28,903 nt of DNA from a virus. Numbering within the stretch: the stretch's first letter is position 1; every line of letters starts with the position of its first letter. The notes below the pieces were generated by a model. The model searched no databases and had not been told where the DNA came from. It was given only the letters and a program-made list of their open reading frames with translations. Shown piece after piece: positions 1 to 22,016 of the stretch. Location: positions 1-28,903 of the IMG/VR virus record IMGVR_UViG_3300048061_000798; one strand, 5' to 3'. Position numbers and translations under genes: made by a program.

Positions 1-54
1 TTGCTCGCCGCTATGACCTGCGTAGTAAGTTGGAAAATAGGGACTAGTAGGCAT
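1..54 (-). CDS. 14: T4 gp14-like neck protein, N-terminal fragment
   Basis: Only the first 18 codons lie in the window; the gene continues past the left edge. The fragment reads MPTSPYFPTYYAGHSGEQ, which matches the N-terminus I know from gp14-type neck proteins of T4-like cyanophages. gp14 pairs with gp13 to form the neck that closes the packaged head and receives the tail. The ATG is at 54, one base after the gene 13 stop codon, so the two genes are tightly coupled, in the T4 order 13-14. The assignment rests on a short stretch plus its position. Confidence 0.72.
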   Translation of the reverse strand, partial: MPTSPYFPTYYAGHSGEQ

Positions 55-55
55 C

Positions 56-856
56 TTATCCGATCATATCCATAGGTGGTAATGCATACTTACTGAGAAC
101 TTCGCTTTCGATTTTCTCAATTTCTGCTAGTGCGTCTGTGTATAGTTCTCTACCATTAAGGGTGATACCACCAGGTAGTTGAACGTTGTTATATTTAATC
201 AAGTTTTGACCCCACTGTCTCTTCATGAGAGCAGCAGCATATTTCTTGACAAACATATCATTATTCATCTCTGTAGCATCTGTAGGATCAATCATCCTAT
301 GTGCCTCAATTACAAGATATCTTTCTTTATTGAGGAATGATTTTTTGATGTCAAGATATAAACGATCACGACGTTGTGTATATCTAAATTGTTGGAATGC
401 TCCATTATTCAGAATCATATCTAGAGTTTCTAGATACTGCTTATTCATAAAGTAGTTGACAATATCAAGAGATCCGAATGCATATAGATCATTCAGGAAC
501 ATTTGATACTCAACACCAAAAAGATTAGATCTAATTGAGTTGCTGACTAGACCATAAACTTTACTGATACCAACTACATGATCTGGGATAGGAATATAAT
601 TAGTAGATTCTTCCCAGTCCGTTGTTCCTGATGATGTTGTCGCTTTACTATCAAAACGAGTTATGTCTTCGTCAGTAATTTTATGCCTTAGAAAACATCT
701 CTCCATACCGTTGTAGCAGTTCTCTTGGAAGAACTGGTAAGTATCATCAATAACATTATTTACTTGCTCATCATCAATGTTAACTTGTAATACAGGCTCA
801 CCAAGTTGCCTCTTACAATATGTGATAAGATCAGCTCTTGAATTTGGAGACGCCAT
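56..856 (-). CDS. 13: T4 gp13-like neck protein
   Basis: This 266-aa protein resembles the neck protein gp13 of T4-like cyanophages (T4 gp13 is about 309 aa). With gp14 it forms the portal-proximal neck where the tail docks onto the DNA-filled head. Recognisable blocks are the N-terminus MASPNSRADLITYCKRQLG, a helical segment NNVIDDTYQFFQENCYNGME (about residues 35-54), YIPIPDHVVGISKVYG (about 88-103), and a C-terminal tail ending PPMDMIG. I chose the ATG at 856 because the family starts MASPN. A TTG at 865 would add three residues and would sit about 6 nt after an AAGAAGG sequence, a better ribosome-binding spacing, so the start is not fully settled. That AAGAAGG lies in the 3' arm of the hairpin at 864-899, so folding may restrict translation. 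Gene 14 follows after 1 nt. Confidence 0.82.
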   Translation of the reverse strand: MASPNSRADLITYCKRQLGEPVLQVNIDDEQVNNVIDDTYQFFQENCYNGMERCFLRHKITDEDITRFDSKATTSSGTTDWEESTNYIPIPDHVVGISKVYGLVSNSIRSNLFGVEYQMFLNDLYAFGSLDIVNYFMNKQYLETLDMILNNGAFQQFRYTQRRDRLYLDIKKSFLNKERYLVIEAHRMIDPTDATEMNNDMFVKKYAAALMKRQWGQNLIKYNNVQLPGGITLNGRELYTDALAEIEKIESEVLSKYALPPMDMIG

Positions 857-863
857 TACACAC

Positions 864-899
864 AAAAAATCCCTTCTTACCTATTTAGGAAGAAGGGAT
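864..899 (-). terminator. Strong hairpin with T-tract between the 65-aa gene and gene 13
   Basis: The 10-bp perfect stem pairs 890-899 with 869-878 (AAGAAGGGAT in one arm). The 11-nt loop can itself close by three more pairs (CCT/AGG). On the minus strand the stem is followed by TTTTTT, the form of a Rho-independent terminator. It stands directly before gene 13, so it could attenuate transcription into 13-14 or mark a processed mRNA end. It also covers the best Shine-Dalgarno candidate of gene 13. There is no T-tract on the plus strand. Confidence 0.75.
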
Positions 900-906
900 C
901 TGAGAG

Positions 907-1104
907 TTATTCTACTACTTCTGTGGGTGCTGCTTCTGCTTCTTCCTCAGGTTTGTCTTCTAGAAGACCTAGAGTTTCTAGACCTCCTTCTAACTTAATT
1001 TTATATTCTTTTGCTTTGACTAGATTTGCTTCGAGTTCAGCAATTTGCTTTTCGGTTGTAGCAATCTGCTCTTCAAAGTTTGTTTTGAGTTGTGCTGGAT
1101 CCAT
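907..1104 (-). CDS. Small coiled-coil protein, unknown function
   Basis: This 65-aa protein (ATG at 1104) has no function I recognise, although short proteins of this look occur near the neck genes of cyanophages. Residues 1-45 form a heptad-rich, charged helix (NFEEQIATTEKQIAELEANL, then KAKEYKIKLEGGLETLGLL) that should make a coiled coil. The last 20 residues are very acidic (EDKPEEEAEAAPTEVVE) and probably disordered. A GTG at 1113 would add three residues, but neither start has a clear ribosome-binding site. It is the first gene behind the CATAAATA late promoter at 1133-1140 and lies just upstream of the hairpin and gene 13. A small virion or assembly-scaffold role is possible but is only inferred from position. 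Confidence 0.75.
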   Translation of the reverse strand: MDPAQLKTNFEEQIATTEKQIAELEANLVKAKEYKIKLEGGLETLGLLEDKPEEEAEAAPTEVVE

Positions 1105-1132
1105 GGTTATCACATGTAATTGTGTATAGAGT

Positions 1133-1140
1133 TATTTATG
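1133..1140 (-). promoter_or_regulatory. T4-type late promoter octamer CATAAATA
   Basis: The minus strand reads CATAAATA, an exact match to the NATAAATA late-promoter motif of T4-like cyanophages (TATAAATA in T4). It overlaps the stop codon of the 116-aa gene and lies about 29 nt upstream of the 65-aa gene start, so initiation near 1127 would give a short leader. It probably serves the 65-aa gene, 13 and 14. The match and position are seen; activity is inferred. Confidence 0.68.
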
Positions 1141-1486
1141 CTTGTCCATTTGGTGGAGTTGGACCGTCATCAATTAGCAAATGTGCAGCGGTTAATTCAT
1201 CTGGTTTTTTGTCGGCATACATTTTAATATTTTTGGGATCTAGTCTTTCTACTACATCTTTATATTCTTCCATAACGGGTTCAGCAATCTTCCAAAAAAG
1301 ACCACCTTTGCCTGGAATAATATCGTATGCAATATCCAGTGCCAAAGCAATGAGTATTTGGTCTCCAAATACAATACCAAGTTTTCTACGAAATTCAACC
1401 TCTCTATTTGTTGGTGCAGCTTTTCTGCATAGGAGTTCTGCAGTTTCTAATTCAACACCATGCCTTCCTTCCATTTCAATTGACAT
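1136..1486 (-). CDS. Conserved-looking phage protein, unknown function
   Basis: This 116-aa protein is one I do not recognise. The first 35 residues are charged (ELETAELLCRKAAPTNREVE). They are followed by a hydrophobic, partly amphipathic helix (about 37-58, LGIVFGDQILIALALDIAYD) that carries two or three acidic residues and so is probably not a true membrane span. A mixed region IPGKGGLFWKIAEPVMEEYK (57-76) and a polar tail ending PTPPNGQA come last. It starts at ATG 1486, divergently from the oxygenase cassette, 50 bp from that cassette's first ATG. Its first codons contain the -35 box of the opposing promoter. A late-type TCTAAATA sequence at 1515-1522 could drive it. It lies in the minus-strand structural direction, so an accessory neck or tail role is possible. 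Confidence 0.72.
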   Translation of the reverse strand: MSIEMEGRHGVELETAELLCRKAAPTNREVEFRRKLGIVFGDQILIALALDIAYDIIPGKGGLFWKIAEPVMEEYKDVVERLDPKNIKMYADKKPDELTAAHLLIDDGPTPPNGQA

Positions 1487-1508
1487 TTTTTATATAAGAT
1501 GGTATACT
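1480..1508 (+). promoter_or_regulatory. Near-consensus sigma-70 promoter for the oxygenase cassette
   Basis: A perfect -35 box TTGACA (1480-1485) is separated by 17 bp from TATACT (1503-1508), a 5/6 match to TATAAT. TG at 1500-1501 makes an extended -10 (TGnTATACT). Initiation would fall near 1514-1516, leaving a leader of about 22 nt before the ATG at 1537. This is the host-type promoter that T4-like phages use for early genes, so the five downstream genes are probably expressed early. The -35 overlaps the first codons of the divergent 116-aa gene. Confidence 0.8.
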
Positions 1509-1530
1509 GTACTATATTTAGAATTATACC
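1501..1530. repeat. Inverted repeat GGTATA-N18-TATACC over the divergent promoters
   Basis: GGTATA (1501-1506) and TATACC (1525-1530) form a perfect 6-bp inverted repeat with an 18-bp spacer. It spans the -10 box and presumed start site of the plus-strand promoter and the candidate late promoter of the minus strand. It could be an operator for a dimeric regulator, but it is short and in A+T-rich DNA, so chance is a real alternative. Confidence 0.35.
1515..1522 (-). promoter_or_regulatory. Possible late promoter TCTAAATA of the 116-aa gene
   Basis: The minus strand reads TCTAAATA, one mismatch from the T4 late octamer TATAAATA, about 29 nt upstream of the ATG at 1486. The same CTAAATATA core occurs upstream of the 3277-aa gene at 17008-17015, which supports it as a used variant. 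It overlaps the presumed start site of the opposing early promoter. Activity is inferred. Confidence 0.42.
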
Positions 1531-1536
1531 ATAAAA

Positions 1537-2133
1537 ATGTCTACCCAACCACCTAGGATTGAAACTTGGTTTCCAAAAACGGTTTACATTCGAGATGATG
1601 TGTGTAGCGATTTGTTACCAGAGTTAGAAAAAAAATGCAAAGAAATTAAAACTGTAAAAACTGAAAGTTTTCAAGTAGAATCAACACACCTAACCAATAG
1701 ATATCTTCATAAGGAAGAATATTTTTCTGAGTTGTCATCTGCTATTATGGACAACTTTAAGTTTTACATGGATCGTCTTGGGTATTGTGAAGACTATATC
1801 TCTCAATGTTTTATTGGAAATATGTGGTGTAATACAAGTAATAGTGGTGGATTTTTGTTTCCACATTCACATCCAGGGTGTATAATGGCAGGAGCATTCT
1901 ATGTAAAAACAATTGATGAAAATCAAATTGTTTTTTATGACTCAATTAACCCACCTTTTGAACCCCCTAAATATGACAACCCATTGAACTGGTCTACAAC
2001 AAAATATAACTGTGATCCTGCTAGACTACTTATGTTTAGGAGTAATATGATTCATGGAACACCTCGCCAAGAAAACGAAGGGGAGAAAATTGTTATCTCC
2101 TTCAACATTGTAAAAGCTATTAGCGCATTTTGA
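1537..2133 (+). CDS. 2-oxoglutarate/Fe(II) oxygenase-like protein 1
   Basis: This 198-aa protein has the layout of the TIGR02466-like group of putative 2OG-Fe(II) oxygenases. Such enzymes couple 2-oxoglutarate decarboxylation to hydroxylation of a substrate. The double-stranded beta-helix core is visible from about residue 95. H110 and H112 lie in FLFPHSHPG, followed by the strand AGAFYV. The distal iron ligand is H173 in RSNMIHGTPRQ, and K184 before IVISFN takes the place of the usual 2OG-binding Arg. The HxH arrangement replaces the HxD of classic members. It is the first gene of a five-gene plus-strand operon behind a sigma-70 promoter, with no obvious Shine-Dalgarno before ATG 1537. The next gene starts 1 nt after its stop. 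The substrate is unknown. The family call is fairly secure, but the catalytic role is inferred. Confidence 0.8.
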   Translation: MSTQPPRIETWFPKTVYIRDDVCSDLLPELEKKCKEIKTVKTESFQVESTHLTNRYLHKEEYFSELSSAIMDNFKFYMDRLGYCEDYISQCFIGNMWCNTSNSGGFLFPHSHPGCIMAGAFYVKTIDENQIVFYDSINPPFEPPKYDNPLNWSTTKYNCDPARLLMFRSNMIHGTPRQENEGEKIVISFNIVKAISAF

Positions 2134-2134
2134 T

Positions 2135-2818
2135 ATGGATTTAGAAGCAAACATTGATGGTATTTTTCCTTCGTATATCTTTAACTTTGATCTATCGGAT
2201 AAAGTTGATTGGAAAAAATTAATTCCTATTCTCGATGAAGAAGTTGACAAGAGACACCAATTAGAAGAAGAACAGAATGCAGCAAAATTTAAAGATCCAA
2301 TTCCATCACAAATGGCACAAACTGTTATCGTAAGAGCAGTTCAAACTTTAGATAGGGAACTTCATAGAAGACAAGAGTTTGCTGAACTTACTGCATGGGT
2401 AAAAATTTGCCTTGATTATTACAGAAAAAGATTTGAAATGCAGTGTGAAAAACTTGAACCTACTTTAATGTGGGGTAATAAGTCAATTAAACATGCCCAA
2501 CACCACGCACATTTCCATACAATGTCTTTGGTCTCTGGAGTCTTTCATCTTCATGATGGTATTGGAACATGTTTCATGGATCCCGTAGAACAAAAACTCA
2601 GGGGTCTTCAGGTTTTTGATAAAACTACGAATGATACTTGGACACCTAGAGCTTACCCAGGACAATTAGTATTGTTTCCTGCGTACATGAAACATTACAC
2701 AGAACCACATCAAGGAGATGATCCTAGGTGGTCAATTGCATTTAACAGTTTTCCTTCTGGAAAATGTAATTGGGATGAACATGATAAAATTATTGCTGTG
2801 GATCTTACTGTAAATTAA
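2135..2818 (+). CDS. 2-oxoglutarate/Fe(II) oxygenase-like protein 2
   Basis: This 227-aa protein is another member of the HxH...H...R type of putative 2OG-Fe(II) oxygenases. The N-terminal 100 residues are mostly helical and charged. The core carries H126 and H128 (HHAHFHTMSLVSGVFHLHDG), the strand YPGQLVLFPAYMKH with distal ligand H187, and R198 in DPRWSIAFNSFPSGK, the expected 2OG carboxylate contact. It is clearly paralogous in plan to the proteins encoded on either side, but the sequences are well diverged, so this is not a recent duplication. It begins 1 nt after the previous stop (TGATATG), and its own stop overlaps the next start by 1 nt (TAATG), which indicates translational coupling. 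It is probably a soluble cytoplasmic enzyme with an unknown substrate. Confidence 0.8.
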   Translation: MDLEANIDGIFPSYIFNFDLSDKVDWKKLIPILDEEVDKRHQLEEEQNAAKFKDPIPSQMAQTVIVRAVQTLDRELHRRQEFAELTAWVKICLDYYRKRFEMQCEKLEPTLMWGNKSIKHAQHHAHFHTMSLVSGVFHLHDGIGTCFMDPVEQKLRGLQVFDKTTNDTWTPRAYPGQLVLFPAYMKHYTEPHQGDDPRWSIAFNSFPSGKCNWDEHDKIIAVDLTVN

Positions 2819-3378
2819 TGGAAGACATTAAATTTGGAATACCATTTTATAATTACAGTATTCCTGATTGGGAAACAAAGAAAAAAATAATTTTAAATAG
2901 TCTCCCAAATTTTAAACAATATAAATTAGAAAAATCAAAAACTAGTGGACATGGTGATAAAAATCACTACACAGATTACTTTGATAATTTAGAAAAACCT
3001 CCTGAGTATGCTAAAACTGTTATTGAATGTTTAGATGATCAAATCCTGGAGTTTTGTAGATCGACAAATGATAATTGGAACCTAACTTCTATTTGGTTTC
3101 AAACTTATGAAAAATATAATAATTTTTCTGTGCATAATCATGGTATAGAAGGTTGGAGTGCAATTTTATATGTTGAGTTTGATAGTTTAGAACATTCACC
3201 AACCACTTTTTATTCTCCACATCTTTCATGGGAAAAAAAGACTCTAGGACAATATAACTCTAACATACCTAATGTTAAAGAAGGAGATCTTATTATTTTT
3301 CCTGCTATGATACAGCACGAAGCTTCATCAAACATGAGTGATAAAACAAGAACAATTATTTCCTTTAACCTAAAATGA
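2818..3378 (+). CDS. 2-oxoglutarate/Fe(II) oxygenase-like protein 3
   Basis: This 186-aa protein is a compact member of the same HxH-type group. H106 and H108 lie in NNFSVHNHGIEGWSAILYVE. The segment VKEGDLIIFPAMIQHEASSN supplies the distal ligand H167, and R178 in KTRTIISFNL is the likely 2OG-binding Arg. The N-terminal part (1-95) is poorly recognisable and would define substrate specificity. The ATG at 2818 overlaps the previous TAA by 1 nt, and its TGA overlaps the next ATG in an ATGA arrangement, so it is co-translated with its neighbours. The substrate is unknown. A structural, non-catalytic version cannot be excluded because the canonical Asp of HxD is absent, though this also holds for other members of this group. 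Confidence 0.78.
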   Translation: MEDIKFGIPFYNYSIPDWETKKKIILNSLPNFKQYKLEKSKTSGHGDKNHYTDYFDNLEKPPEYAKTVIECLDDQILEFCRSTNDNWNLTSIWFQTYEKYNNFSVHNHGIEGWSAILYVEFDSLEHSPTTFYSPHLSWEKKTLGQYNSNIPNVKEGDLIIFPAMIQHEASSNMSDKTRTIISFNLK

Positions 3379-3995
3379 ATTTTATTGAAGTATACGACAA
3401 CGCTCTTTCTCCAGAATTATGCAAAAAAATTATTGAATATTTTGAAGAGGTTCCACCAGAACTTAAACATAATGGTCAAATATATGGAGAAAATCATAAC
3501 GATATTAAGGTAGATAAAGATTACAAAGATTCTACTGATATTTGGATGAATTTTCATACCTGGTCAGAACCAGATAAAATTCTTGCTTCTACTCTTTTGC
3601 AATACATTCAAACATATAGAGAAAAGCATAAAGAAATTGATAATGTAGCTACTTGGGAATTATCTGAAAGGTATAACCTACAGAAATATGAACCAGGGCA
3701 GGGATATCATTCTCCTCATTGTGAGAATATGGATGGTCCGTCTCCTAGAATTTTAGCATGGATGTTTTATTTAAATACTGTTACTGATAAAGGTGGAACT
3801 CACTTTACTAACTGGGACATTACAACAGATGCTGTTGAAGGAAGACTAGTTATTTGGCCAGCATATTGGACTCATACACACCATGGGGTCATGAGTGAAA
3901 CTCAAACAAAATATATCGCTACTGGATGGTATGATTTTGAACAAAAAGTAAGTATCGAGGATCTTTTTAATGCAGCAATCCAGCAAAATCAGTGA
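3375..3995 (+). CDS. Prolyl-4-hydroxylase-like 2OG-Fe(II) oxygenase 4
   Basis: This 206-aa protein fits the prolyl-4-hydroxylase type rather than the HxH group encoded just upstream. The N-terminus (FIEVYDNALSPELCKKIIEY) is the usual opening helix. The core has LQKYEPGQGYHSPHCENMDG with the iron ligands H115 and E117 (HCE in place of HxD), the strand RILAWMFYLNTVTDKGGTHF, GRLVIWPAYWTHTHHG with the distal His (H167 or H169), and K179 in TKYIATGWY. Lys at that position is what P4H enzymes use to bind 2OG. The start overlaps the previous stop (ATGA), and its last 26 nt overlap the next gene. Family members hydroxylate prolines in Gly/Pro-rich or ribosomal proteins. The substrate here is unknown. 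Confidence 0.82.
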   Translation: MNFIEVYDNALSPELCKKIIEYFEEVPPELKHNGQIYGENHNDIKVDKDYKDSTDIWMNFHTWSEPDKILASTLLQYIQTYREKHKEIDNVATWELSERYNLQKYEPGQGYHSPHCENMDGPSPRILAWMFYLNTVTDKGGTHFTNWDITTDAVEGRLVIWPAYWTHTHHGVMSETQTKYIATGWYDFEQKVSIEDLFNAAIQQNQ

Positions 3996-4548
3996 TTTTA
4001 TTTTTGTAGAAAAATCTATACCCGATGCTATATGTGATTATGTGCTGAAAGAATTGGAATCTAACCATTGGGAAAAACATCAATGGGGATCTATAAGCGG
4101 AGATAAATTTAAAAAAGAAGAGACATCTCAAGAACCAGATGTAACTTATTCAAAACCACTTGACTCTATTTTAAATTCTTTTGTTGTTAAGACTGGCAAA
4201 AAATACGAAGAGATATACTCAGACAAATCATGTCAAAATACATCTCAATTTATTTTTTCGATTTCTGAAATTAGGTTTAATCGCTACCACATTAATCAGA
4301 AAATGGAGATGCATTTTGATCACATCAAAAGTTTATTTGATGGTAGTAATCCTGGTATTCCAGCAGTATCTTTTGTTGGAGCACTTAATGATAATTATGA
4401 AGGTGGAGAATTAGTATTCTGGGAAGATTATTCTATAGCATTAAAAAAAGGGGAAGTGGTGTGCTTCCCCTCAAATTTTATGTATCAACATAGAGTAAGT
4501 CCAATACTCAGTGGTGTTAGAGATACTTTTGTTTGTTGGTCTTGGTAA
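3970..4548 (+). CDS. Prolyl-4-hydroxylase-like 2OG-Fe(II) oxygenase 5
   Basis: This 192-aa protein has the most classical 2OG-Fe(II) active site of the five. H115 and D117 lie in QKMEMHFDHIK. GALNDNYEGGELVFWEDYSI is the typical GGEL strand, KKGEVVCFPSNFMYQHRVSP contains the distal ligand H174, and R184 in GVRDTFVCW is the 2OG contact. It starts at ATG 3970 inside the end of the preceding gene (26-nt overlap) and ends at TAA 4546-4548, with the convergent glycine-rich gene's stop codon beginning at the very next base. A minus-strand terminator hairpin is encoded in its KKGEVVCFP segment (4443-4470). It is probably a protein or nucleic-acid hydroxylase; the substrate is unknown. Confidence 0.82.
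   Translation: MQQSSKISDFIFVEKSIPDAICDYVLKELESNHWEKHQWGSISGDKFKKEETSQEPDVTYSKPLDSILNSFVVKTGKKYEEIYSDKSCQNTSQFIFSISEIRFNRYHINQKMEMHFDHIKSLFDGSNPGIPAVSFVGALNDNYEGGELVFWEDYSIALKKGEVVCFPSNFMYQHRVSPILSGVRDTFVCWSW
4443..4470 (-). terminator. Rho-independent-type terminator of the late transcript, inside an opposing gene
   Basis: A 7-bp perfect stem GGGGAAG/CTTCCCC (4450-4456 with 4464-4470) and a 7-nt loop are followed on the minus strand by TTTTTTT (4449-4443). This is a textbook terminator for transcription arriving from the glycine-rich genes, about 80-100 nt past their last stop codon. It lies entirely within the coding sequence of oxygenase 5. On the plus strand the hairpin is not followed by a T-run. 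Confidence 0.75.
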
Positions 4549-5976
4549 TTATTCTTTGTATCTAATAATAACAATACCGGAACCTCCTGCTCCTGCTTTA
4601 GTTCCACCTTGGTTTCCACCTCCATTGTTATTAGAGGAACCACCACCTCCACCACCGCCAGTGTTAACAAGACCATTACCAGCAGCTTGGTTATAACTAG
4701 GATCCCAATGAGATCCTTGACCGCCACCTCCACCTTTATTGTTTGGTCCACGAACACCATTAGTGGTGTAGTAGTATTGACCACCGTCTCCACCACCACC
4801 AAACCAACCTCTGTCTCCAGAAGTTCCGTTAATTTGTGTAGTTCCCCAATATTCAAATCCGGGAAAATATCTACCAGGACCACCAGAACCTGGCGCTGCT
4901 TGTCCCCAACCTCTTACTGTTGCTGGCCAGTTGATATTAGTGCCATAATCAGTATTACTACCCATACGACCTAATTCATATCCTCCACATCCACCGCCAC
5001 CAGCACCTTCGTGTGGTTGTCCATGTGTGCTATCTTGTCCATGACCATTCATTCCATAATTTCTTGGAACAAATCCACCATCACTACCACCAGTTCCTGA
5101 CGGATAAGTTCCATCATTTTTTCTATTAAAAGGTCCGTTGTGTGGACCGGGACCATATGCATATCTGGAACCACCACTGTTTCCATATCCGTATCCACCA
5201 AAATTTCCTTGGGTAGTTCTACCACCTAGGTTATGTGTCACCCACGATTGAACACTACTATAGAAGTCTCCTGATCCTCCACCATTTCCGCCATTTTTTT
5301 CTTCATGACCATCAGGTTGTCCCCAAAAATTGGTAGGAGTTTTAGATCTTTGTTCATTATTTGTGTAGAAAGATTCCATTCCACCACCACCACCAATAGC
5401 GATGAATTTTACCTGAGCATCACTATCTGATGTTATGTAACTATCTCCACCTCTGCGACCATGGAAGAAAGTGCCATCTCCTTGTCCGGTGTAATAATTT
5501 CCAGCAGTATTATAACTTCCGGGAGGACCTGCTTCACCACCATTTCCAACTTTTATTGTATATGTTCCTGGTGCTGCGAACCATTGTGGTTGCCAAAGAA
5601 TTCCTCCGGCACCACCTCCACCGCCACCACTATGGGATCCGCCACCACCACCACCACCAGCAACCACTAGAACTTCTGCGTATGCTTGAAATCCTGAAGT
5701 ATTGATAGTAAAAGTAGAGGTAGCGGAAGTATCTGTATATACATGATACTTCCACCCATTACCAGGAGAACTTACAGATCCTCCAGATGCTGTAATTTTC
5801 CCTTTTCCTAAATTTAACCAACCGTCGTTTGCAGTTAAAACTTGAGCAACATTAGAATCTGTGTTGTAAATAATTGCTCCAACCGAATGATTGATAGAAT
5901 CTCTGGTTGCTATACTTTGAAGCGGTACAGTGAATGCTTCAGATGGTCTTAGAGTACCTACGTTTAATTGTGACAT
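4549..5976 (-). CDS. Glycine-rich tail fibre or adhesin-like protein A
   Basis: This 475-aa protein has three parts. Residues 1-60 form a fibre N-terminal module ending in GAIIYNTDSNVAQVLTANDG and WLNLG, the 'IxFNT...W..LG' motif of marine phage fibres. A short beta domain follows (about 60-105, ending AEVLVVAGGGGGGGSHSGGG). The rest is a long Gly/Asn/Tyr-rich region with runs of up to eight Gly. It closes with GGSGIVIIRYKE, the hallmark end of glycine-rich fibre domains. In T-even-like phages, glycine-rich adhesins form polyglycine sandwiches whose loops contact the receptor, so a receptor-recognition role is plausible. It follows its paralogue by 6 nt, with a weak AGGTTTGA ribosome-binding site. 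It is the last gene of the late run, and its stop abuts the convergent oxygenase operon. Confidence 0.78.
   Translation of the reverse strand: MSQLNVGTLRPSEAFTVPLQSIATRDSINHSVGAIIYNTDSNVAQVLTANDGWLNLGKGKITASGGSVSSPGNGWKYHVYTDTSATSTFTINTSGFQAYAEVLVVAGGGGGGGSHSGGGGGGAGGILWQPQWFAAPGTYTIKVGNGGEAGPPGSYNTAGNYYTGQGDGTFFHGRRGGDSYITSDSDAQVKFIAIGGGGGMESFYTNNEQRSKTPTNFWGQPDGHEEKNGGNGGGSGDFYSSVQSWVTHNLGGRTTQGNFGGYGYGNSGGSRYAYGPGPHNGPFNRKNDGTYPSGTGGSDGGFVPRNYGMNGHGQDSTHGQPHEGAGGGGCGGYELGRMGSNTDYGTNINWPATVRGWGQAAPGSGGPGRYFPGFEYWGTTQINGTSGDRGWFGGGGDGGQYYYTTNGVRGPNNKGGGGGQGSHWDPSYNQAAGNGLVNTGGGGGGGSSNNNGGGNQGGTKAGAGGSGIVIIRYKE
5651..5679. repeat. 29-nt exact repeat, copy in glycine-rich gene A
   Basis: This stretch is identical to 6791-6819 in the paralogous gene. 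It encodes the AEVLVVAGGG junction that opens the glycine-rich domain in both proteins. Identity at the nucleotide level in otherwise diverged genes suggests recent recombination or a conserved crossover point. Confidence 0.85.
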
Positions 5977-5982
5977 TTTAAA

Positions 5983-7101
5983 TCAAACCTGATAACGGAC
6001 AATAACAATACCAGAACCACCCCTTCCAGCAGAAGAAATGCCATTGTTGTTGGAAGATCCACCACCACCACCACCACCGGCAGCGTTTACAGCATCTTCG
6101 CCATAAAGACTATATCCAGTAGAACCACCACGTCCACCACCACCGTAATAACCAGCAGTAGAGTTATTTGATCTGTTAGCAGAACCACCACCTGTGGTGA
6201 AATATCCACCACCACCGCCACCAGCAAACCATCCTGATGGAAAACCATATGGGGAGAATTGATTTAATTGTTTTCCAATTCCACCATTACCTGCAACCGA
6301 TGCAGATCCTCCGCTTGCTATACCACCAGCACCGCCGCCACCAGCACCTTCATGTGGTCCTGCGTGAGCTCCATCATCCGTTGCTCTACTTCCACCAACA
6401 TTACCGTAGTATGTTCCGCCAGCATTATTTCCTTGGAGCGCATTACCACCAGTCCATGCTCTGCCACCAGGCACGTTTCCTGCTCTAGTCGCTGGCCACC
6501 AGTCTCCACCGCCACCACCGGATCCACCATTCTTATAGATGGAGAAATAGTAGAAGGATTCATTTCCTCCTCCACCACCAATAGCATGAATCTGATCGAA
6601 ATAACTATCTCCACCTGGTCTACCATGTGAAGAAGAATCGTTCGCTGTGTTTGCGTTGTATCCAGTTCCCGCAACACCCCCATCGCCAACAACTACATTA
6701 TAAGTTCCAACAGCAATTGGATATGAAGTGTGATGAACAAGTCCACCGCCTCCGCCTCCGCCTCCACCGCCATGAGATCCACCGCCTCCGCCACCACCAG
6801 CAACCACTAGAACTTCTGCTTGAGTTCCATCTGGAACTGAAGTTACAGTAAAAGCACTAGTTCCTGGTTGAGTGAAAGCGTGCATTTTAAAATTGCCACT
6901 TACACTAACAATACCACCAGAAGCTTCAATACCACCCTGTCCTGTTGAAATCCAACTAGTTCCATCATAAATTTCAACAGTTCCGCTAGTGGAATTAAAT
7001 ATCATTAAACCGACAGCACCTGCAGGTCTATTACTAGAGGTATATGAAGGAAGTTCAATACCAACGCTTACATTAAGCTTATCTACATTAAGAGACGACA
7101 T
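5983..7101 (-). CDS. Glycine-rich tail fibre or adhesin-like protein B
   Basis: This 372-aa paralogue of protein A has the same architecture. The N-terminal fibre module contains GAVGLMIFNSTSGTVEIYDG and WISTG (about 28-53). A short beta domain then runs into AEVLVVAGGGGGGGSHGGGG. The Gly-rich body includes the shared PHEGAGGGG motif, and the C-terminus is RGGSGIVIVRYQV. The two proteins align well at both ends but differ in the middle loops, as expected if the loops select receptors. It starts at ATG 7101, behind an AATAAATA late octamer (7125-7132), and stops 6 nt before gene A. It is probably exposed at a fibre tip. A chaperone-like adhesin role similar to T-even gp38 is possible but unproven. 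Confidence 0.78.
   Translation of the reverse strand: MSSLNVDKLNVSVGIELPSYTSSNRPAGAVGLMIFNSTSGTVEIYDGTSWISTGQGGIEASGGIVSVSGNFKMHAFTQPGTSAFTVTSVPDGTQAEVLVVAGGGGGGGSHGGGGGGGGGGLVHHTSYPIAVGTYNVVVGDGGVAGTGYNANTANDSSSHGRPGGDSYFDQIHAIGGGGGNESFYYFSIYKNGGSGGGGGDWWPATRAGNVPGGRAWTGGNALQGNNAGGTYYGNVGGSRATDDGAHAGPHEGAGGGGAGGIASGGSASVAGNGGIGKQLNQFSPYGFPSGWFAGGGGGGYFTTGGGSANRSNNSTAGYYGGGGRGGSTGYSLYGEDAVNAAGGGGGGGSSNNNGISSAGRGGSGIVIVRYQV
6791..6819. repeat. 29-nt exact repeat, copy in glycine-rich gene B
   Basis: This is the second copy of the exact repeat at 5651-5679, in the same reading frame and at the same place in the protein (the start of the polyglycine region). Confidence 0.85.
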
Positions 7102-7124
7102 ATCCTAAAGCTCTTTATCTTATC

Positions 7125-7132
7125 TATTTATT
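7125..7132 (-). promoter_or_regulatory. Likely late promoter AATAAATA of the glycine-rich genes
   Basis: The minus strand reads AATAAATA, matching NATAAATA, in the 37-bp gap between the 3277-aa gene and glycine-rich gene B, about 24 nt upstream of the ATG at 7101. It would allow the two adhesin genes to be transcribed separately from the giant gene. The position supports it; use is inferred. Confidence 0.6.
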
Positions 7133-7138
7133 AGTTAT

Positions 7139-10100
7139 TTATTGTATTGTCCAGTTGCCACCATTTTCAATAGTAACTTCTTTACCAGCGCCAATTGTCA
7201 ATTCTCCAAAGGAAACAATGTATTCCCCGTTTTGAACAACAACAGTTTCGTCAATTGTTTGCTTACATTTTTTAAACATACCATAACTATCAGTCCATTG
7301 CTCAAAACCATTTGCAAACAATGAAGCTTTAGCAGGCAATAACTGAATATGAATGCTATCACCAGTATCAGTATTACCGGCACAATCGTAAACATTTCCC
7401 GATGTTGGCGAAGAGTTGATCTGCACGAAATCAATTTCACCTGAAACAGTTGCGTCAGCAAATATGCTTCCACTAGGACTACCGCCACTGCCGCCATCAC
7501 CACTTAACCATGCTAAGTAGTAAACTCCGCCAGTAGTTAAATTTGGAGTGCCAATAATTCCAGTCGCAGAATCAAAATCAAATTCTAGAATTTCTCCAAT
7601 TGTTCCTCCAGGTGGAGATTTAATTTTTGCGCCATATACTGTAGTATATGTTGTTGCTGTGACAGGAGAAACAATCAATAACCACCAATAGTATTCACCA
7701 GGGTTGACCCTTCTATATTTGACTGCTCCATATGTTTCTGTTGGATCAAGTACTACTGATTTATCAACACCAAAGTATCCAGGACTGAACCATTGTGATC
7801 CACCAGTTAAGGTATTATCACCTTTAAATTGTCCATTGGCAATTTCAATATCTCCACCAACAACTAACTCTTTTTGTGGAGCGATAACAGAATCAGATTC
7901 TGGACCAATTCCAACCTTAGATAACCTATAAATGTCTTCTTGGTTAACTGCTTCTGTCCATCTAGAAGTTACAAATTCTTCATTGTTTTGATAGAATTGA
8001 CCGTTCAGGTTCATATCACCCTGAACGTTCAGAATGTAATCTCTATTTACATTAGGTGTAACGCTAGTATCAGTACCAGCAAAAATATTTGTATTAATGC
8101 CAACTCTATTGTTGGTTCCTTGAATTGCGAGTGCTGGAGGTAAAGAATTTGGTGATGCCAAACTCTTCCAGTCAACACCACCATTGGATTGAGAAGCATA
8201 AATTTCAAGTAAATCTGCACCACCACCAATGTTTGATCCAATACGGAATCCTCTACCACCGCCAGCACCAGCTGCTCCACCTCTTAATTGTAGATCTGCT
8301 TCTGTATTGGAAGTGCCATCTCCAATTCTTGTGCTATTTTTGATAGTAGCAATTTGCGAATAAACGTTCGCCCACTTCAGTGAATTACTGCCAAGATCTT
8401 GGTCATTAGTAGCACCAGGAGTAATACTACCACCATTAGAAATTTTCAATCTTACAGCAGAAGTAGCAGTTGCTGTTCTGGTTCTAATAATTAATTCACC
8501 AACATCAGCAGATGTTCTGTGTGTTGAAATACCCCATTGGGCAGCAGCAGAAGCACCATGCTGTAATACAATACCAGATTCGCCAGTATCTACTTGGTTG
8601 TATACACTTGATTGATAAAGTGATATCTGAGAAGATAATGCTGCTGCTGTATCAAACTCATCAGCACCAAGTGCTGCGTAAACATTAAACTTGACAGGAT
8701 TTGCATCTGCAGTTTGACCGATATTGACGGTATCATTTGTAGAGTTAACATAAAGAACTCCACTATTAACAGTGAGATCTGCAGTAATTGTCGTGTTTCC
8801 ACCAACTGAAAGAGTACCAGTTCCTTGGATAATAATATTGTTATTACCGGTGATAGTCAAACCACCAGTCATGGTATCACCAGTTTTCAATACGTTGAGA
8901 GAAGCAGCACCAATAATACCAGCAGTAATTGTACCGGCAGTAAAATTACCAGAGGTATCTCTCATCACAGCAGACTTGAGTGATAATGTAGAAGCTACAT
9001 TGGTAGAATTAAATGCAACATTACCTGCGTTCCAAATAATGTTGTTATTAACTTTAAGTTCGTTTTCGTCAACAACCTTAAACTCAAGACTACCAGATCC
9101 TTCTGATGCATCACCACCATCAGCAATAATAGCAGAGTTATAAGTAGGATCTCCATTATTATCTACTGCTTGTGATTGAGAGGAGTTGAAATAGATATAT
9201 GGTTGAGTTGCGGCAATACCATCATATCTACCAAGTCTCAGATAACCAGTTCCAGAATTATTGCCTAATTCTGCATATTGAACTGTGTTATCATCAAAAA
9301 TTTCAAACTGTTCAAACTCCCTTTCATCTCCAGCATACCCAAGATAAACTGCAGAGTCAATATTACCACCAGAACTAAGTCTTCCGGTAAGCATCGTGTA
9401 TGTATTGGAAGAATCATTTAAGTCAACATTTTGTCCTGTTGCTGTAATTACAAAATCACCAACACTTTGCTTATTAATATTGTAAATATCAATTGTTTTA
9501 GTAGCTTCAAAATCTCCACCTGGATCAACATCAAGGTTTTGTCGTACAAAAATTCTATAATATGTTTCTGGTCCTGCATATGAGGAAACTTCAACTTTAT
9601 CTCTGAATTTAGTAGAACTTCTCCATGTTGGAAGTCTAGTCTCAAAAATTGTGTTCTCTTTAATGTTCCAACCATCTTGATACCAGACGCCTTCTTTGTT
9701 ATCAAGTTTGTCTGAATCCATTCCAGAACTAATACCCTGGTTTCCTGAAGTCCAAAGTTCAAACCAAGAATTGTAATTTGATACAGCATCACCAGATCCA
9801 CGGAAGTAGATTCTGTCGTTATTAGCAAATGCAAGTTGTCTTACACCACCATACGTAGCGTCTCCACCAGTTTCTCCGTTACGGAGAGTCATTACTAAAT
9901 GCTTGGCAGAGTTTTGGTTTCCAGTATCTACACTTGGATATGCTGATAGTAGACCGTTAGAACTGTTGAATAAGGTTTGTAGTGTTACACCTTGAACAGC
10001 ATCACTTGGAGCAGGGTTTGCATTAGGGTTGCTGATACCAGTATCAACACGAAGTGTGTTAGTAGATCTACCACTAATATCAATACCGTATGTTCCACTA

Positions 10101-13100
10101 GCAAGTTTATCTGGATTGATGCTACTATCAACGAAGAAAGCACCATTGAGATAATAATTACCTTGCTGACCATCTAGCAAGTCAGCATCCAATCCACTAT
10201 CAGGACCCATCTTGATAGATATGGATCCATTTCCTTCATTACCAATATTAAACTGAGATTTTTTATATCTAGCAACACCAATTGTTCCAAATAAATCTTG
10301 TGAGATTGTTAGATCGGAAACTCTTTGAATATCAAGAGAGATATTAGCAAATTGTTTTTGTGTAGTAGCTACTTTAGCGAGTAAAACTAAATTAGAACCA
10401 GCACCAATTACTGATGGGTTTGGAGTAACTTGGAAATCTTGAGTGTATCCATCACCAGCGTTTGTTACAGTGACTGTTGTGACTTGACCGTTTTGTCCAT
10501 TCTCACCAACAATAATATTTGCTCTTAGATTATTTCCGTTAAGTCCTGCAGGTGCATCTAATGCCACATCAAAGTATTGACCATCCGTAAATCCGGTGCC
10601 TGGATTTGCGATTACAACAGAATCAACAAATTCTCCTCCAGTATTTGTGGAATCAAAAACAAGTGGGGAAGAACCACGACCAAATTCAATAACAGTTCCT
10701 GCTGCAATAGTAGCATCGATAGGATTGTTGAAAGAAACTGTAGTTAGATTTCCAACTACAATAACACCATTCACCGTAGTATCTGCTACAACTCCAGATA
10801 TACTATCAGAAATTGAGTGTCCTTTCAAAACTCCAGATAAACCCTGGAAAATAAAAGAACTTGAACCTAAAGATGCTTGTGAGAACAATCTTGCAAAGTA
10901 TCTTGTTTCTGCTCCTTTTAGTGATTGAACAACTTTTGCGTAACTTTGGTCTCCTCGTAAGAAAGAGAAAGAGTTTGCCGCTTCAGAACCCAATAAAGTT
11001 GTGGAAATAACACCAGGACCTGTAAGAGATCCAACACCAACTGCTTCACTACTTAGTGATACCCAGTTGCTAATAAGTGATGATGATGTATTGACAACCC
11101 TGAGAATATTAATTGAATTTGCAGGAGTGCTAGTATCATCAAATGTATCAGTATCAAGCATCTTGATCTGATTGACAATATTACCATACAATCTACTTTC
11201 AGTAAATGCAGTAGCAGTTGCTTGTGTGCCAGCTCCAGGAGGTGCTGCGATAGTGATTATCGGTTGTGTGGTGTATCCTAATCCACCAACATAACTTGCA
11301 TTTTCTGTGACAGTAATAGTAACAACTTCGCCATTAGCAATAGTACAAGTTGCTGTTGCAGGAACCGAACCTGCTGATGGATTACCGCCAGAAATTGTTA
11401 CCGTTGGAGCAACAGTATATCCAGAACCACCTTCTGTAATATTAATTTTATATAATACGCCTTCTCTATACTCGGTAGATTGAATTCTTCCTGTAGATGG
11501 AGAACCGGTAAATACATCACCAATATTAAATGCTAGTGATGCATCTACAGCAAATCCAAGGAACAGACTTGATAGATCATTGTTTAGAATAAATGACTGT
11601 GGCGTACCATCTGCAACATCACTATTATCTTGAATAGCAATATCTCCAGCAAGTGCTCCTTCTAAGGCAAGTCTTTCCGTTTCGTTTACGATAGTAAAAA
11701 TACTAAATGGTCTTAATGCAGGGATCTGATCAAGAGAAATTTTACCAGAATCTGTAAGTTCAACCAGTGCTCTAGGAACAGCGTTCGTAGAATATGGTTT
11801 GTTAATGTATGGACCAAGAGAGTTTGTGATATAATCTTTAACTGCCTTCTGTGTAGGTAGTTTGGAGTCAGTGGCATTAGCACCACCAAGAGTATTGGAG
11901 TTATCGAATCCAGTAACAACAACGTCGCCACCTTTCAGTTTCAAGAATTCAACTTCTGAAATTGTAACCGTGCCAGTAAAGGTAATATTACCAGTTCTGT
12001 TCTCGATTCTTGCAAATGTTCCAACCTTAAAATCACCTAGTTCGTCAGTACCTGAAACATATACACGACCATAGTTTTCGGATACCTGCTCGTTTGCCTC
12101 AACTTTAGTTCCACCGTTCTCTGGAAGAGCTAAGTAGTTAGTTCCTGAACCTGCAAATTCCCAAGTGTGTGATGAGGAGTTGACGATAGATGGTCTGTGT
12201 AATCTAATCGTAGCATTTGCTGAAGCTGATGGTGTCAATGCTTGCTGTAGTGCTGTTAGACCAGAAACAGTATTACCAGTTGCTTCCTCGATTAAAGTTA
12301 AACCATTTCCAATACCATCATCAATCGTAAGTATTGCCGAGAAAGGAGGACCAACAGTAACTCCGCTTACAGATTCGACAAAGAATTCTTTATCTGGATC
12401 TGCGTTTCTATAACCATCAATTTTAACAATGTAATGTTCTAGTGGTTCTCTTCCGATATTACCAACAGTAAGGATAGTTCTGCCAGTTGGTGTTTGAGAA
12501 ACAACATTGACTATGCCAGCATCAAATTCATATGCGTCTTTACGGAAACCTGTTCCTCTTAGAGCAAAGGTTCCGAAGTTAGTAGCAGAGTTAGTGATAG
12601 AAGCATATCCACCAGTATCACAGAAAACACCATCCTGACAGAAGATAACGAAGACAGAAACTAACTGGGTATAACCATCGTTGATAACTTTATATCCTGT
12701 GCCACCGAAGGAAACAATCGTGAATGCCGCAGCAACCATCGACTTACCCTGATTAGGGAACGATGCTGTTCCGTCTGGTTCTAGACCAGGGAAGGGGCAG
12801 TTAGGTTGCTTAACCTTATCACCATCAACTTCAGCACCACTACCACCTCTAAAGGAAATAACTGAAGCGTTCTGTGTATATGGAGATGCTTCAATAATTG
12901 GATAATCATCATACACACCACGAACTGCCATCCTATTATTACCGAAGTCATTAATGAAACTAGTCGGATAAGTCAGAAGACTATTCGTTTCATATAAAGT
13001 TCCGAAGGTCTGTGCAATAGATCCAGGAGCAGCACCATTAACAGCATCAGAAGCATACTCTAAAATACTATCAAAGGTTGTTATTGCTGTTGTAATAGCA

Positions 13101-16100
13101 GAAGCAATAGCAGCACATGATGGGTTTGCACTATCTTCTAAAATACTCCAATCTTCAAATTGGGGAATTAATGAAGTTGTTGGGTATGGAGCATAGATAA
13201 TTTTAGTTCCGCCTGTTAAAGCACTTGCAAACGTGTGTGCGTCTGTATTGCTTCCACCTACACCAACGTTGGCAGTAACAATAGTATTTCCACTATTGTT
13301 TGAAACATTCGTAATTAAGAAACTTTGTCCAAAATTTGCGTCTGTTCTATATGGACTTGCATCATTACCACCACTACCATGAGCACAACTGAATGTAATT
13401 GCTCCTTCAGCAAAAGCAATTCTGTCTTGATTTGCTACTGGAGCTGCTGCTGGATTTGGGAATGTTACTGTGAATACTCCAGTGTTTGGAGCATACGTAG
13501 CAGTAGATGGTGTCGTAGCTAAAATATTTCCATCTGTCCAATTACGCATTGCTGCGATAGCAAGATCTTTTACTTGCTGGAATGCATATCTGGTTTCATC
13601 TAATTGTGCTTCTGGAATTCCAGAAAGAACGGCTCCACTAAAATACGATTCTGCAGCAGAAACAACACCATGGTTTCCTCCTAACACTAAGTCTCTTACA
13701 AGACCCTTAAGAACAATTTTGATATCTCTACGACATTTTCTCTGACGAATATCAGAGAGATTTAAAGTTGGATACGCTGCTTCTGTTTTGATTAGTGCTT
13801 CATCTGCAATTAGATCAGCATTTTTAGCAATTAGATAAGCAGCATCAAGATATGTTCCAGACGCATCATTTGTGATAACATCTGACCAAAGGTATGCTAA
13901 TGTATCAATAGCAGATCTTACATCATCACAAGCAGGAGTTCCTGCTGTTGTGTTAACAATAGTTAAATCAGTATATCTTGTTGATGTAGCATATTTTGTG
14001 GTGTATAAAGGATCAGAAAGTGTTCTATTCTTAATCCTCCAATTGCACATTGCATAAATTGCTAGTTCTCTAGCATATTCAATTGCTCGCGCATTTTGAA
14101 TAATTTCATCTTCAATAAAAGTAATCTTTCCGTCAATAATATACTTGGAAGCAGCTTCGATAATATTGTGGTTAGACCCAAACTCCAGGTCTCTTACAAG
14201 AGCATTAAGGAAATGTATTACATCTTGCTTACATTGCTCATCACCATCAGTACCAGTATTATTTCCTGAAGTTGGGGAACTATATGAAGGATAAATTTTC
14301 TGACCAGCACTACAAGAAATAAGAATGTCTGCTAGTTTAACAACATCATCTTCAGATAATGCGGCGATAGCAGCTGCCGTTGTTGTAATTGTAGCAACGC
14401 CAGTTGTAGCATTATCGTATACAAAATTGCTAATTGCATATGAAGTACCACCAAATGTTACTGTGCCACCACTAACATATGTGTTTATATGATCTGTGGG
14501 ACCTAGATAAATGTCAAATGTATTGTTAACAGCGTCAAGATTATATACTGCGAAATAATCTTTTGAGAATTGCTCATTAATAATACCAACTACTTCTTCT
14601 GCGATGTAGTCTCTATTATTTCTAATTAACTGGCAAGCATCCTGATATCTTCTTTCCGCAGGAATTGCTAGGGCAAATTTGTTTGGTGAGTTTAGTAATG
14701 AAAGTGTGACAGACTTAGAATATGACTTTACTACAGCAAATTCACTTGGGGAGAAATTTGCAGTTGATAGAGAAGGAACTTTTTTTGGAATAACAAAACG
14801 TCGTGCGCGACCATCAGCATCTTCTAGGACTTTGTAAATTCTTTGCTTTCCATTTAAGAAAGATAAGTCTGGTCCAGAAGTTGGGAGGTTTTCAAGAATA
14901 ATTTCTTGACCTTCTTTAAATTCGTGGAAGTTAGTTCTACCTACAAGAGCACTGGTGTAAACAACAACACCACCAATATCTTCTGCGTCTCCATAAATAT
15001 CAGATTGGAAACCACCAGTAGCAATACTAGGATCTCCCTGTAGAGAGAAATCTAACCTAGTGATTGGCAGAGTTGATATAATATCTTCATCATAAGAAAC
15101 AACCTCACCTTCAGCTCTAATCGACTTAAGATTTGTGCTGTCAAGAGTATTTGATGTTGGTGATGCAGAGTTAATCGTGATTGTTGAATCCGATAAAATG
15201 CTATCCCATCCTACTGCACCTAGAATAGGAACAAAAGTAACATCCCAATACGTGGGTGCATTACCATTATTAACAACCGAAACTTGGTAAAAACCTGAAG
15301 TGAATGATGAGTTGTCAGTATCGTCTAAGAAAACAACATTGTTTACTGGAAGATCTGTTGATGGATCTGTAGTAAACCTTAAAGTATTTTCTCCAGAAGT
15401 TCCACTAATTGTTTGTGAGATTGCGCCACCAACCGCAGCTGATGTAATATAACTATACTGGTCTCCTTCAATAAAGGAACCAGATGCTAATGTCACATCA
15501 ATTGTGCCTGCAACAAACGCATTTGCTCCAGTTGATGAGGTAAAAGATACACCAGAACTATTTGCTCTAGCACCAGTGTTCAAACCTAAAAGTTGAACTC
15601 CTGATTGTAGTAATGCCAATCCTGTGTTATTTTGGAAAGAGATACGAAATCTATCTGGTCCAAAAACTTGATGTCCAACTGGGAACTCGACACCAAAATC
15701 TCCATTAACTTCATTATCGATAACAATTCTTTGCTTGTCATCAAAGACCATAGCAAAGTCCCACGTTCCAGTAGGATCTCCGTTTGAGTCAATTTTATCT
15801 CTATAAGTTACGCCAGTAACATAGTTTTTATCACCAAACTTAAAGATATGCTTGCCAACATTACCGGGTCGGACAATCACCAAACGAAGGTTATCACCAA
15901 CAACAGAGCAATCAGGTGGTAGTGAGATTGGGTTATCTTCTACGTAATTACCACCAGAAACAATTAGTGTTTCTTTGACACCAGGAGTTTTCCATGCCTC
16001 TTGTGCTGCCTTTTTAATTGTTCTGACAGGGTTCACAGCAGAACGACCATCGTTTAGGTCAGAACCAATCTGTTGTGAAACATAGATACGACCACCAACG

Positions 16101-16972: not shown

Positions 16973-17007
16973 GGCGCTGTCGTATCCTTGACTTTTTTCC
17001 TATGATA

Positions 17008-17015
17008 TATTTAGC
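17008..17015 (-). promoter_or_regulatory. Weak late-promoter candidate GCTAAATA upstream of the giant gene
   Basis: The minus strand reads GCTAAATATA, two mismatches from TATAAATA but sharing the CTAAATATA core with the candidate at 1515-1522. It sits in the only gap (44 bp) before the 3277-aa gene, about 36 nt from its ATG. An AAGGA sequence near 16986-16990 is a possible but distant ribosome-binding site. Confidence 0.35.
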
Positions 17016-17016
17016 A

Positions 17017-17517
17017 CTAAGCCCAAGCAATACTTATAACTTCTGTGGATACCGCCCATTTAATTGTTTGCACTGTTCCTGATCTTACAGTCGAATAACT
17101 AAAACGATTGGTCGCTGTGAATGGTTGTATAGACCAAGATTCGCCCCCAGGGACATCGTGCTTGATAATCGTTAACATACTGGAAAGAACTGTAGTTGCT
17201 CCTGCGGGACCACAAAATACAACACTTTCTATTTTTCCTGAGTAAACTACTCCAGAAGGATTGACTCCAAGAAAATGACCGGTGATAAAATTAACTGTAT
17301 TATTCTGAATAATAATTTGAGTCCCAACATCATCTAATTCTAGGGTTGCAGTATTTACTCCTCTCAGAATATAATTTGTTGTTTTGCTATCTTGAAAAAA
17401 TGCATTCTTCATCTCAATTGAATTGAGAGACATCGCATTATGCCCCTCATCAATATGAACTGTTTCGTCTACAGAATATCCACCAAGGGATTCAAATTTT
17501 TGTATGTTTGTCGGCAT
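17017..17517 (-). CDS. Putative virion protein, unknown function
   Basis: This 166-aa protein (ATG at 17517) has no family I recognise. It looks like an all-beta protein. It opens with MPTNIQKFESLGGYSVDETV and continues with alternating hydrophobic strands (TATLELDDVGTQIIIQNNTV; SGVVYSGKIESVVFCGPAGA). It ends with a strand-rich TVRSGTVQTIKWAVSTEVIS region and a final AWA. No signal peptide or membrane segment is seen. It has a good ribosome-binding site (CAGGAAA, about 10 nt before the ATG, inside the end of the preceding gene), follows the 1431-aa gene by 1 nt and precedes the giant fibre gene. A small fibre- or baseplate-associated virion component is likely from position and fold class only. 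Confidence 0.7.
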   Translation of the reverse strand: MPTNIQKFESLGGYSVDETVHIDEGHNAMSLNSIEMKNAFFQDSKTTNYILRGVNTATLELDDVGTQIIIQNNTVNFITGHFLGVNPSGVVYSGKIESVVFCGPAGATTVLSSMLTIIKHDVPGGESWSIQPFTATNRFSYSTVRSGTVQTIKWAVSTEVISIAWA

Positions 17518-17518
17518 T

Positions 17519-22007: not shown

Positions 22008-22016
22008 ACGCGGAAA

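Follow-up and report, generated by a model that had tools for sequence, protein, structure and literature searches.

Why would a phage carry, side by side among its virion genes, five different 2-oxoglutarate (2OG)/Fe(II) oxygenases? The locus that raises this question lies in a 28.9-kb IMG/VR virus record (IMGVR_UViG_3300048061_000798; all 28,903 nucleotides are referred to here as the window), whose genes mark the source virus as a T4-like marine cyanophage: its gp13 neck protein is 99.3% identical to that of Synechococcus phage ACG-2014i (Kyanoviridae, Chalconvirus), and the window covers the interval, from VrlC to the neck genes, that Zaragoza-Solas et al. named the host recognition cluster (PMC7029224). 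An original prediction, made from the sequence of this stretch, had proposed a dedicated modification system made up of the five enzymes. We found that the oxygenases are linked to candidate glycine-rich tail adhesins and that the unit consists of fibre tip, adhesins and oxygenases, a partnership absent from that prediction. Judging from gene content and arrangement, we give roughly even weight to a reading in which the five oxygenases provide the enzymatic part of an exchangeable module for host recognition and would hydroxylate the adhesin or the fibre tip.

Five divergent oxygenases in a single run

The five adjacent open reading frames lie where they had been predicted, at 1537-4548 on the + strand:

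1537..2133, + strand: ox1, 2OG-Fe(II) oxygenase, 198 amino acids (aa); PF13759; HxH110-112, H173, K184
2135..2818, + strand: ox2, 2OG-Fe(II) oxygenase, 227 aa; PF13759; HxH126-128, H187, R198
2818..3378, + strand: ox3, 2OG-Fe(II) oxygenase, 186 aa; PF13759; HxH106-108, H167, R178
3375..3995, + strand: ox4, 2OG-Fe(II) oxygenase, 206 aa; PF13640; H115-E117, H167/H169, K179
3970..4548, + strand: ox5, 2OG-Fe(II) oxygenase, PKHD-hydroxylase-like, 192 aa; PF13640; H115-D117, H174, R184

All five exceed the cut-off of a Pfam 2OG family, ox1-3 matching 2OG-FeII_Oxy_5 (PF13759) with 43-58 bits and ox4-5 matching 2OG-FeII_Oxy_3 (PF13640) with 38-46 bits (curated cut-off 27 in each case); the corresponding PHROGs matches are phrog_81 for ox1-3 and phrog_61 for ox4-5. 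TIGR02466, a further profile that had been suggested for checking these proteins, was matched by ox1-3 below its cut-off (35-45 bits vs. 62.5), and ox5, at 38 bits vs. at least 143 for the NCBIfam equivalog of PKHD-type hydroxylases (YbiX/PiuC), is not a member of that group; its match to the PKHD-type PDB entry 3DKQ has an E value of 2e-7. Chance open reading frames were rejected, with a longest open run of 234 codons vs. a maximum of 178 in 1000 dinucleotide shuffles and a ratio of nonsynonymous to synonymous substitution (dN/dS) vs. orthologues of 0.03-0.26 in every ox gene; the same two tests rejected the opposite strand as the true coding strand. All five genes are thus under purifying selection, and ox2 is the most conserved member (dN/dS 0.03-0.08, 89-96% identity, far above its neighbours).

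Each member had been expected to carry an iron-ligand pattern. In its canonical HxD/E form this pattern occurs only in ox4 (H115-C-E117) and ox5 (H115-F-D117), with HxH in its place in ox1-3 and in every one of their orthologues. Because all these orthologues and the solved PF13759 family member 3BVC likewise have HxH, we read the motif as a trait of the family and not as decay. The prediction did hold for the distal His and Arg/Lys (H173/K184, H187/R198, H167/R178, H167 or H169/K179 and H174/R184 in ox1 to ox5), which are invariant in 12-13 contigs, the 2OG-binding Arg/Lys lying ~10 residues past the distal His in all five oxygenases. The fold was assessed by model for ox2 alone: the AlphaFold2 model (predicted local distance difference test [pLDDT] 76, predicted template modelling score 0.78) is a double-stranded beta-helix, as had been anticipated, and Foldseek vs. 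PDB returned 302 matches at E<=0.001, the best being 3BVC (E 6.6e-11) and 2RG4, followed by prolyl hydroxylases and other 2OG enzymes, with HygX and AndA among the neighbours.

The low similarity between members noted earlier was borne out, the best-matching pair being ox1/ox2 with 24% identity over 148 aa; given this value and the two Pfam families, recent duplication of one gene was rejected, in agreement with the earlier argument against copy-number expansion. Since the junctions consist of a 1-bp gap and then overlaps of 1, 4 and 26 bp, translational coupling of ox1-5 is plausible. The GC content at third codon positions (0.17-0.26) is inside the range of the structural genes and is uninformative on host origin.

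Linkage to glycine-rich adhesins and the fibre tip

On either side of the run, the window holds these features:

56..865, - strand: gp13 neck protein (PHROG; 99.3% identity to ACG-2014i)
907..1113, - strand: 68-aa phrog_580 protein; the module's right border is at the start of this gene
1136..1486, - strand: 116-aa protein, inside the exchanged segment, divergent from ox1
4549..5976, - strand: gly1, candidate glycine-rich tail adhesin, PF21722 Gly_rich_2, convergent with ox5
5983..7101, - strand: gly2, candidate glycine-rich tail adhesin, PF21722, weak match to phrog_863 tail fiber assembly
7139..16972, - strand: long tail fibre protein, 3277 aa, phrog_5342
7139..7955, - strand: C-terminal tip of the long tail fibre, ~270 aa, exchanged with the module; similarity to ACG-2014i and to phage fragment L103 ends at 7952-7956

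Alignment of the window with ACG-2014i gave 98.3% identity at 1-1112, 86% at 7956-19050 and 99.4% at 21640-26028, and nothing alignable in ACG-2014i for 1113-7955, the segment comprising the last ~270 fibre residues, both adhesins, the five oxygenases and the 116-aa gene; the corresponding 1.5 kb of ACG-2014i carries two small genes unrelated to these. Fragment L103 has the fibre backbone and gp13 in common with the window, with equal breakpoints (1110, 7952), and between them carries a different Gly-rich adhesin followed by an antisense run of eight 2OG genes plus a tryptophan halogenase. Outside the tip, the long tail fibre is mostly 64-98% identical to that of ACG-2014i or L103. Because the breakpoints are common to the three phages, enzymes, adhesins and fibre tip have been swapped together, i.e., adhesin and enzymes are replaced jointly on one backbone, and in the window the oxygenase run stands beside a Gly-rich adhesin downstream of the tail fibre gene. 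In a second patch, at 19050-21640 within a 1431-aa virion structural protein (17519-21814), nucleotide similarity to ACG-2014i is again almost absent, although the sequence on both sides aligns.

Parts of the cassette were found in 16 other IMG/VR contigs, 12 of which hold five whole genes and 4 of which are truncated where the contig stops. Gene order, strand and neighbours, including gly1 and gly2 where reached, are identical in 16/16 (three being near-duplicates of the window or of one another, so that the independent lineages are fewer), which accords with the earlier view of the run as one dedicated unit. The fixed layout, gp13-907-1136-[ox1-5 antisense]-gly1-gly2-fibre, is that of the window, read there as long tail fibre, gly2, gly1, ox5-ox1 on the opposite strand, the 116-aa protein, the 68-aa phrog_580 protein and gp13; all other large open reading frames of the window encode structural proteins and lie on the - strand. 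gly1 adjoins ox5 in all cassette contigs long enough to include it, and the 116-aa protein, which had no match in Pfam or PHROG and for which no counterpart was found in ACG-2014i, is kept in 14/14 cassette contigs reaching its gene. The correlations of protein distances are unequal (0.85 for ox4/ox5, 0.76 for ox4/gly1 and -0.14 for ox2/gly2), and the genes therefore recombine inside the block while the layout persists.

The contention that cyanophages carry single or scattered genes of this superfamily, which is also how they have been described in the literature (PMC9146016), has to be abandoned: PF13759 and PF13640 genes were present in 24/24 isolate genomes scanned, many with ~10, and S-RSM4 has at least seven in the equivalent slot. 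Antisense placement, earlier taken as a mark of the system, was rejected as a module signature, the arrays of S-RSM4 type being on the structural strand. In 13 genomes picked by gp13 similarity alone, 13 of the 92 2OG genes fell in the fibre-gp13 slot vs. 1.9 expected by length (P 0.001, position shuffles). At least three 2OG genes lay within 8 kb of a Gly_rich_2 adhesin in 8/14 genomes vs. 2.1 expected (P 0.0005, position shuffles), and a tryptophan halogenase lay within 5 kb of an adhesin in 5 genomes vs. 0.5 expected, a result reached in 0/20000 shuffles. As the position-shuffle statistic is weaker at other criteria and about half of the genomes were chosen via 2OG hits, it is not decisive by itself, and two further scans therefore took as queries the Gly-rich adhesins of ACG-2014g and S-RSM4. 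Between two and eight 2OG genes stood beside 38/38 loci having at least 1.5 kb downstream (these represent few adhesin types and not 38 independent events). The HTVC008M adhesin as query retrieved nine contigs, all with an antisense 2OG run and with gp13 next where it was reached. Homologues of the five enzymes thus co-occur in other phages, contrary to the outcome that had been named as fatal to a joint system. In ACG-2014g, P-RSM6, P-TIM40, S-WAM1 and S-SZBM1, the adhesins are far from gp13 and the oxygenases lie beside the adhesins, an arrangement that is hard to explain as just a feature of the gp13 slot.

Several observations were made on these runs in passing. In over 30 IMG/VR contigs of the S-RSM4 type (L107-L143), a Gly-rich adhesin is followed by a conserved array of seven or eight sense-strand oxygenases, and in the longest of these contigs a second Gly-rich adhesin closes the array ahead of gp13. 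In pelagiphage contigs L078 and L079, one oxygenase of the antisense run has been lost or replaced by an unrelated one, an instance of member exchange. A PF13640 trio at ~44-50 kb in many cyanophages, away from adhesins (S-RIM44 45595-47909, Syn1 45797-48111, S-CAM3 46742-49099), probably has a separate, core role. Tryptophan halogenase genes occur between Gly-rich adhesins and oxygenase runs more commonly than by chance, at the following sites:

P-RSM6, 156-159 kb: tryptophan halogenase
P-TIM40, 36-40 kb: tryptophan halogenase
S-RIM44, 104-107 kb: tryptophan halogenase
S-WAM1, 31 kb: tryptophan halogenase
S-SZBM1, 17 kb: tryptophan halogenase
L103, 11777-13237: tryptophan halogenase

Possible role of the oxygenases

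What might such enzymes do beside a tail adhesin? The timing of their synthesis is suggested by two kinds of putative signals:

1480..1508, + strand: putative sigma-70 promoter of the cassette, TTGACA-17-TATACT with extended -10 (TGn), 11/12 matched
7125..7143, - strand: two AATAAATA late-type motifs upstream of gly2

The putative ox1 promoter is the top one of 33 sigma-70-type matches in window 1-8000, and its TTGACA and TGnTA(T)nnT are recognisable in the aligned contigs; as the -35 overlaps the start codon of the 1136-1486 gene, this conservation may partly reflect coding. The AATAAATA motif before gly2 resembles the T4/cyanophage late promoter. With a sigma-70-type promoter before ox1 and late-type motifs before gly2, it is plausible that the enzymes are made early or in the middle of infection, before the late adhesins.

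We postulate that the oxygenases are made from their own host-type promoter and, in reactions dependent on 2-oxoglutarate, O2 and Fe(II), would hydroxylate adhesin or fibre-tip side chains, with different target residues for each enzyme. Hydroxylation would then alter the folding or stability of the glycine-rich fold or its binding to the receptor. This reading is preferred because it would explain the fixed multi-enzyme set, the linkage to adhesins at varied sites and the joint exchange, and also because a second type of side-chain-modifying enzyme, the halogenase, is found in several runs. We more tentatively suggest, at somewhat less than an even chance, that the receptor-binding modules of marine T4-like phages are interchangeable and pair every glycine-rich adhesin with 2OG oxygenases of its own, sometimes with tryptophan halogenases too, which would hydroxylate (and halogenate) the adhesin post-translationally and so tailor host recognition chemically.

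A number of points weigh against hydroxylation of the adhesin or the fibre tip. The substrate itself is what we infer, and gly1 and gly2 are candidate adhesins named from their sequence; the AlphaFold2 model of gly2 (eight-sequence alignment) had a pLDDT of 31 and was unusable, and the gly2 profile found no match among PDB sequences. One partner protein in S-RSM4 matches the ALK/LTK glycine-rich domain PF12810. The nearest isolate homologues of ox1 (S-RIM50, ACG-2014g, S-RSM4) are all near Gly_rich_2 adhesins; those of ox2, ox4 and ox5 are in replication/early regions (S-H38, S-SZBM1, ACG-2014g, P-SSM2, S-RIM50), with those of ox2 adjoining clamp-loader genes, and that of ox3 adjoins gp5, so several members come from a general phage pool with other roles. 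The protein distances of ox2 and gly2 are uncorrelated. Counts of genomes with at least one 2OG gene within 5 kb of an adhesin (7 vs. 4.9 expected, P 0.18) or at least three (2 vs. 1.1 expected, P 0.30) showed weak enrichment, and the entry of about half of the 24 isolates through 2OG hits weakens the statistics. Finally, S-CAM1, S-CAM3, P-SSM2, S-SCSM1 and S-WAM2 have Gly_rich_2 proteins with no run nearby.

Among other explanations, it is possible, if unlikely in our judgement, that the oxygenases simply hitch-hike in a hypervariable island, with the VrlC-gp14 host recognition cluster gathering cargo and being swapped whole, and with no action of the enzymes on the adhesins. The region is the published hypervariable island, containing tail fibres and unrelated genes such as glycosyltransferases (PMC7029224), 2OG genes are present at many other sites in these genomes, and the nearest homologues of ox2, ox4 and ox5 are in other modules. 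However, the composition is fixed in the 16 contigs and likewise in arrays of S-RSM4 type whose adhesins are 67-91% identical. Where the Gly-rich adhesin is outside the gp13 slot, it is accompanied by the oxygenases, and other cargo types are scarce inside the module. Modification of the host surface or its sugars that excludes competing phages, or of small molecules, with the tryptophan halogenases as partners, strikes us as quite improbable. Halogenases do accompany the runs, alteration of host lipopolysaccharide has been attributed to further genes of the recognition island (PMC7029224), and several members of the superfamily act on small molecules or sugars (as exemplified by the Foldseek neighbours HygX and AndA), but the module contains no glycosyltransferase or other pathway genes, and surface modification alone does not demand a joint swap of adhesin type and enzyme set.

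The published explanations for cyanophage 2OG oxygenases invoke nitrogen signalling (PMC3037559) and DNA repair (PMC9146016). The former, proposed by Sullivan et al. in 2010 (PMC3037559) and later repeated (PMC9602691), would have the enzymes deplete 2-oxoglutarate and thereby alter NtcA signalling and the energy supply during infection; it gives no account of five different slow-evolving enzymes, of the adhesin linkage or of the fibre-tip exchange, and such oxygenases are also found in SAR11 phages, so we rate it slightly lower still. Repair or modification of nucleic acids by AlkB-like enzymes appears the least probable of all. It is a published guess for cyanophage 2OG oxygenases near uvsX/uvsY/uvsW, in the form quoted in PMC9146016, and the closest homologues of ox2 do lie beside clamp-loader genes; nevertheless, an AlkB-type family was matched by 0/5 of the proteins (the families being PF13759 and PF13640), ox5 resembles PKHD-type protein hydroxylases, and the genes sit with structural genes.

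Related systems and implications

Among the closest known counterparts is S-RSM4 (NC_013085, SRSM4_132-142), in which an oxygenase array with members related to ox1, ox4, ox5 and ox2 occupies the slot between long tail fibre and gp13 with Gly-rich adhesins on both sides; unlike the run described here, that array has at least seven and up to ten genes, is on the structural strand and follows a different order. Pelagibacter phage HTVC008M (gp068-gp072) likewise has a Gly-rich adhesin, an antisense oxygenase run and gp13, whereas its members and family order are different, its host is SAR11 and its sequence similarity to ox1-5 is distant. As to single enzymes, the TIGR02466/PF13759 structures 3BVC and 2RG4 have the fold and the HxH...H motif in common with ox1-3, but are bacterial and of unknown function, with ox1-3 scoring under the TIGR02466 cut-off; PKHD-type hydroxylases (YbiX/PiuC, 3DKQ) resemble the C-terminal catalytic half of ox5. 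Viral protein hydroxylases include the collagen lysyl hydroxylase L230 of Mimivirus and the prolyl 4-hydroxylase of PBCV-1. In these a virus hydroxylates its own glycine-rich structural protein, a comparison of how the systems work only, since they involve eukaryotic viruses, a collagen substrate and other enzyme families. The gp38-type adhesins of T2, S16 and PP01 are comparable in position, being glycine-rich tip proteins encoded downstream of a long fibre gene, and gly2 has the phrog_863 match but none in PDB; gp38-type adhesins of coliphages and Salmonella phages are not known to be accompanied by an oxygenase run.

Large numbers of 2OG oxygenases have been reported in cyanophages S-SCSM1 (24; PMC9602691), S-CREM1 (ten; PMC9964418) and S-SZBM1 (nine; PMC9146016). 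These genes belong to the same Pfam families and have low mutual identity, but were published as scattered metabolic or DNA-repair genes, and a link to adhesins is absent from those papers. Three PHROG labels matched by ox4/ox5, 'DNA endonuclease' (phrog_2297), 'DNA endonuclease V' (phrog_274) and 'ferrochelatase' (phrog_3531), were rejected for proteins matching PF13640 or PF13759, among which are several RefSeq proteins bearing these names; they are probable mislabels that have spread into RefSeq protein names, and the reported pairing of 'ferrochelatase' with 2OG oxygenases in pelagiphages (PMC9599517) may be partly a mislabelling effect. The sites are:

window, 3375-4548: ox4/ox5, probable mislabels
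L086, 6498-7686: probable mislabel
L053, 14147-15137: probable mislabel
L058, 4594-5229: probable mislabel

The phrog_2954 'ferrochelatase' proteins (L053:17986-18621; L074:12809-13450), with weak PhyH/2OG_Oxy_2 similarity, lie in or end oxygenase runs.

Neither the gene families and their cyanophage abundance nor the hypervariable island is new; what is new is the linkage to glycine-rich tail adhesins; we found no published coupling of adhesins and oxygenases in the open-access literature, subscription papers, including the original S-RSM4 and HTVC008M reports, being outside the scope of this search. Only a demonstration that the adhesin is modified would make this a new kind of system. Few unexplained genes are as common in cyanophages as those for 2OG oxygenases, which have for 15 years been ascribed to nitrogen signalling, DNA repair and general metabolism. 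If our proposal is true for a part of them, phage receptor recognition would have a chemical layer that is invisible in sequence, and fibre sequences would not suffice for a full prediction of host range. A test of the proposal could also address the role of the puzzling phage tryptophan halogenases, and hydroxylated adhesins would be predicted in isolates such as S-RSM4 and HTVC008M.

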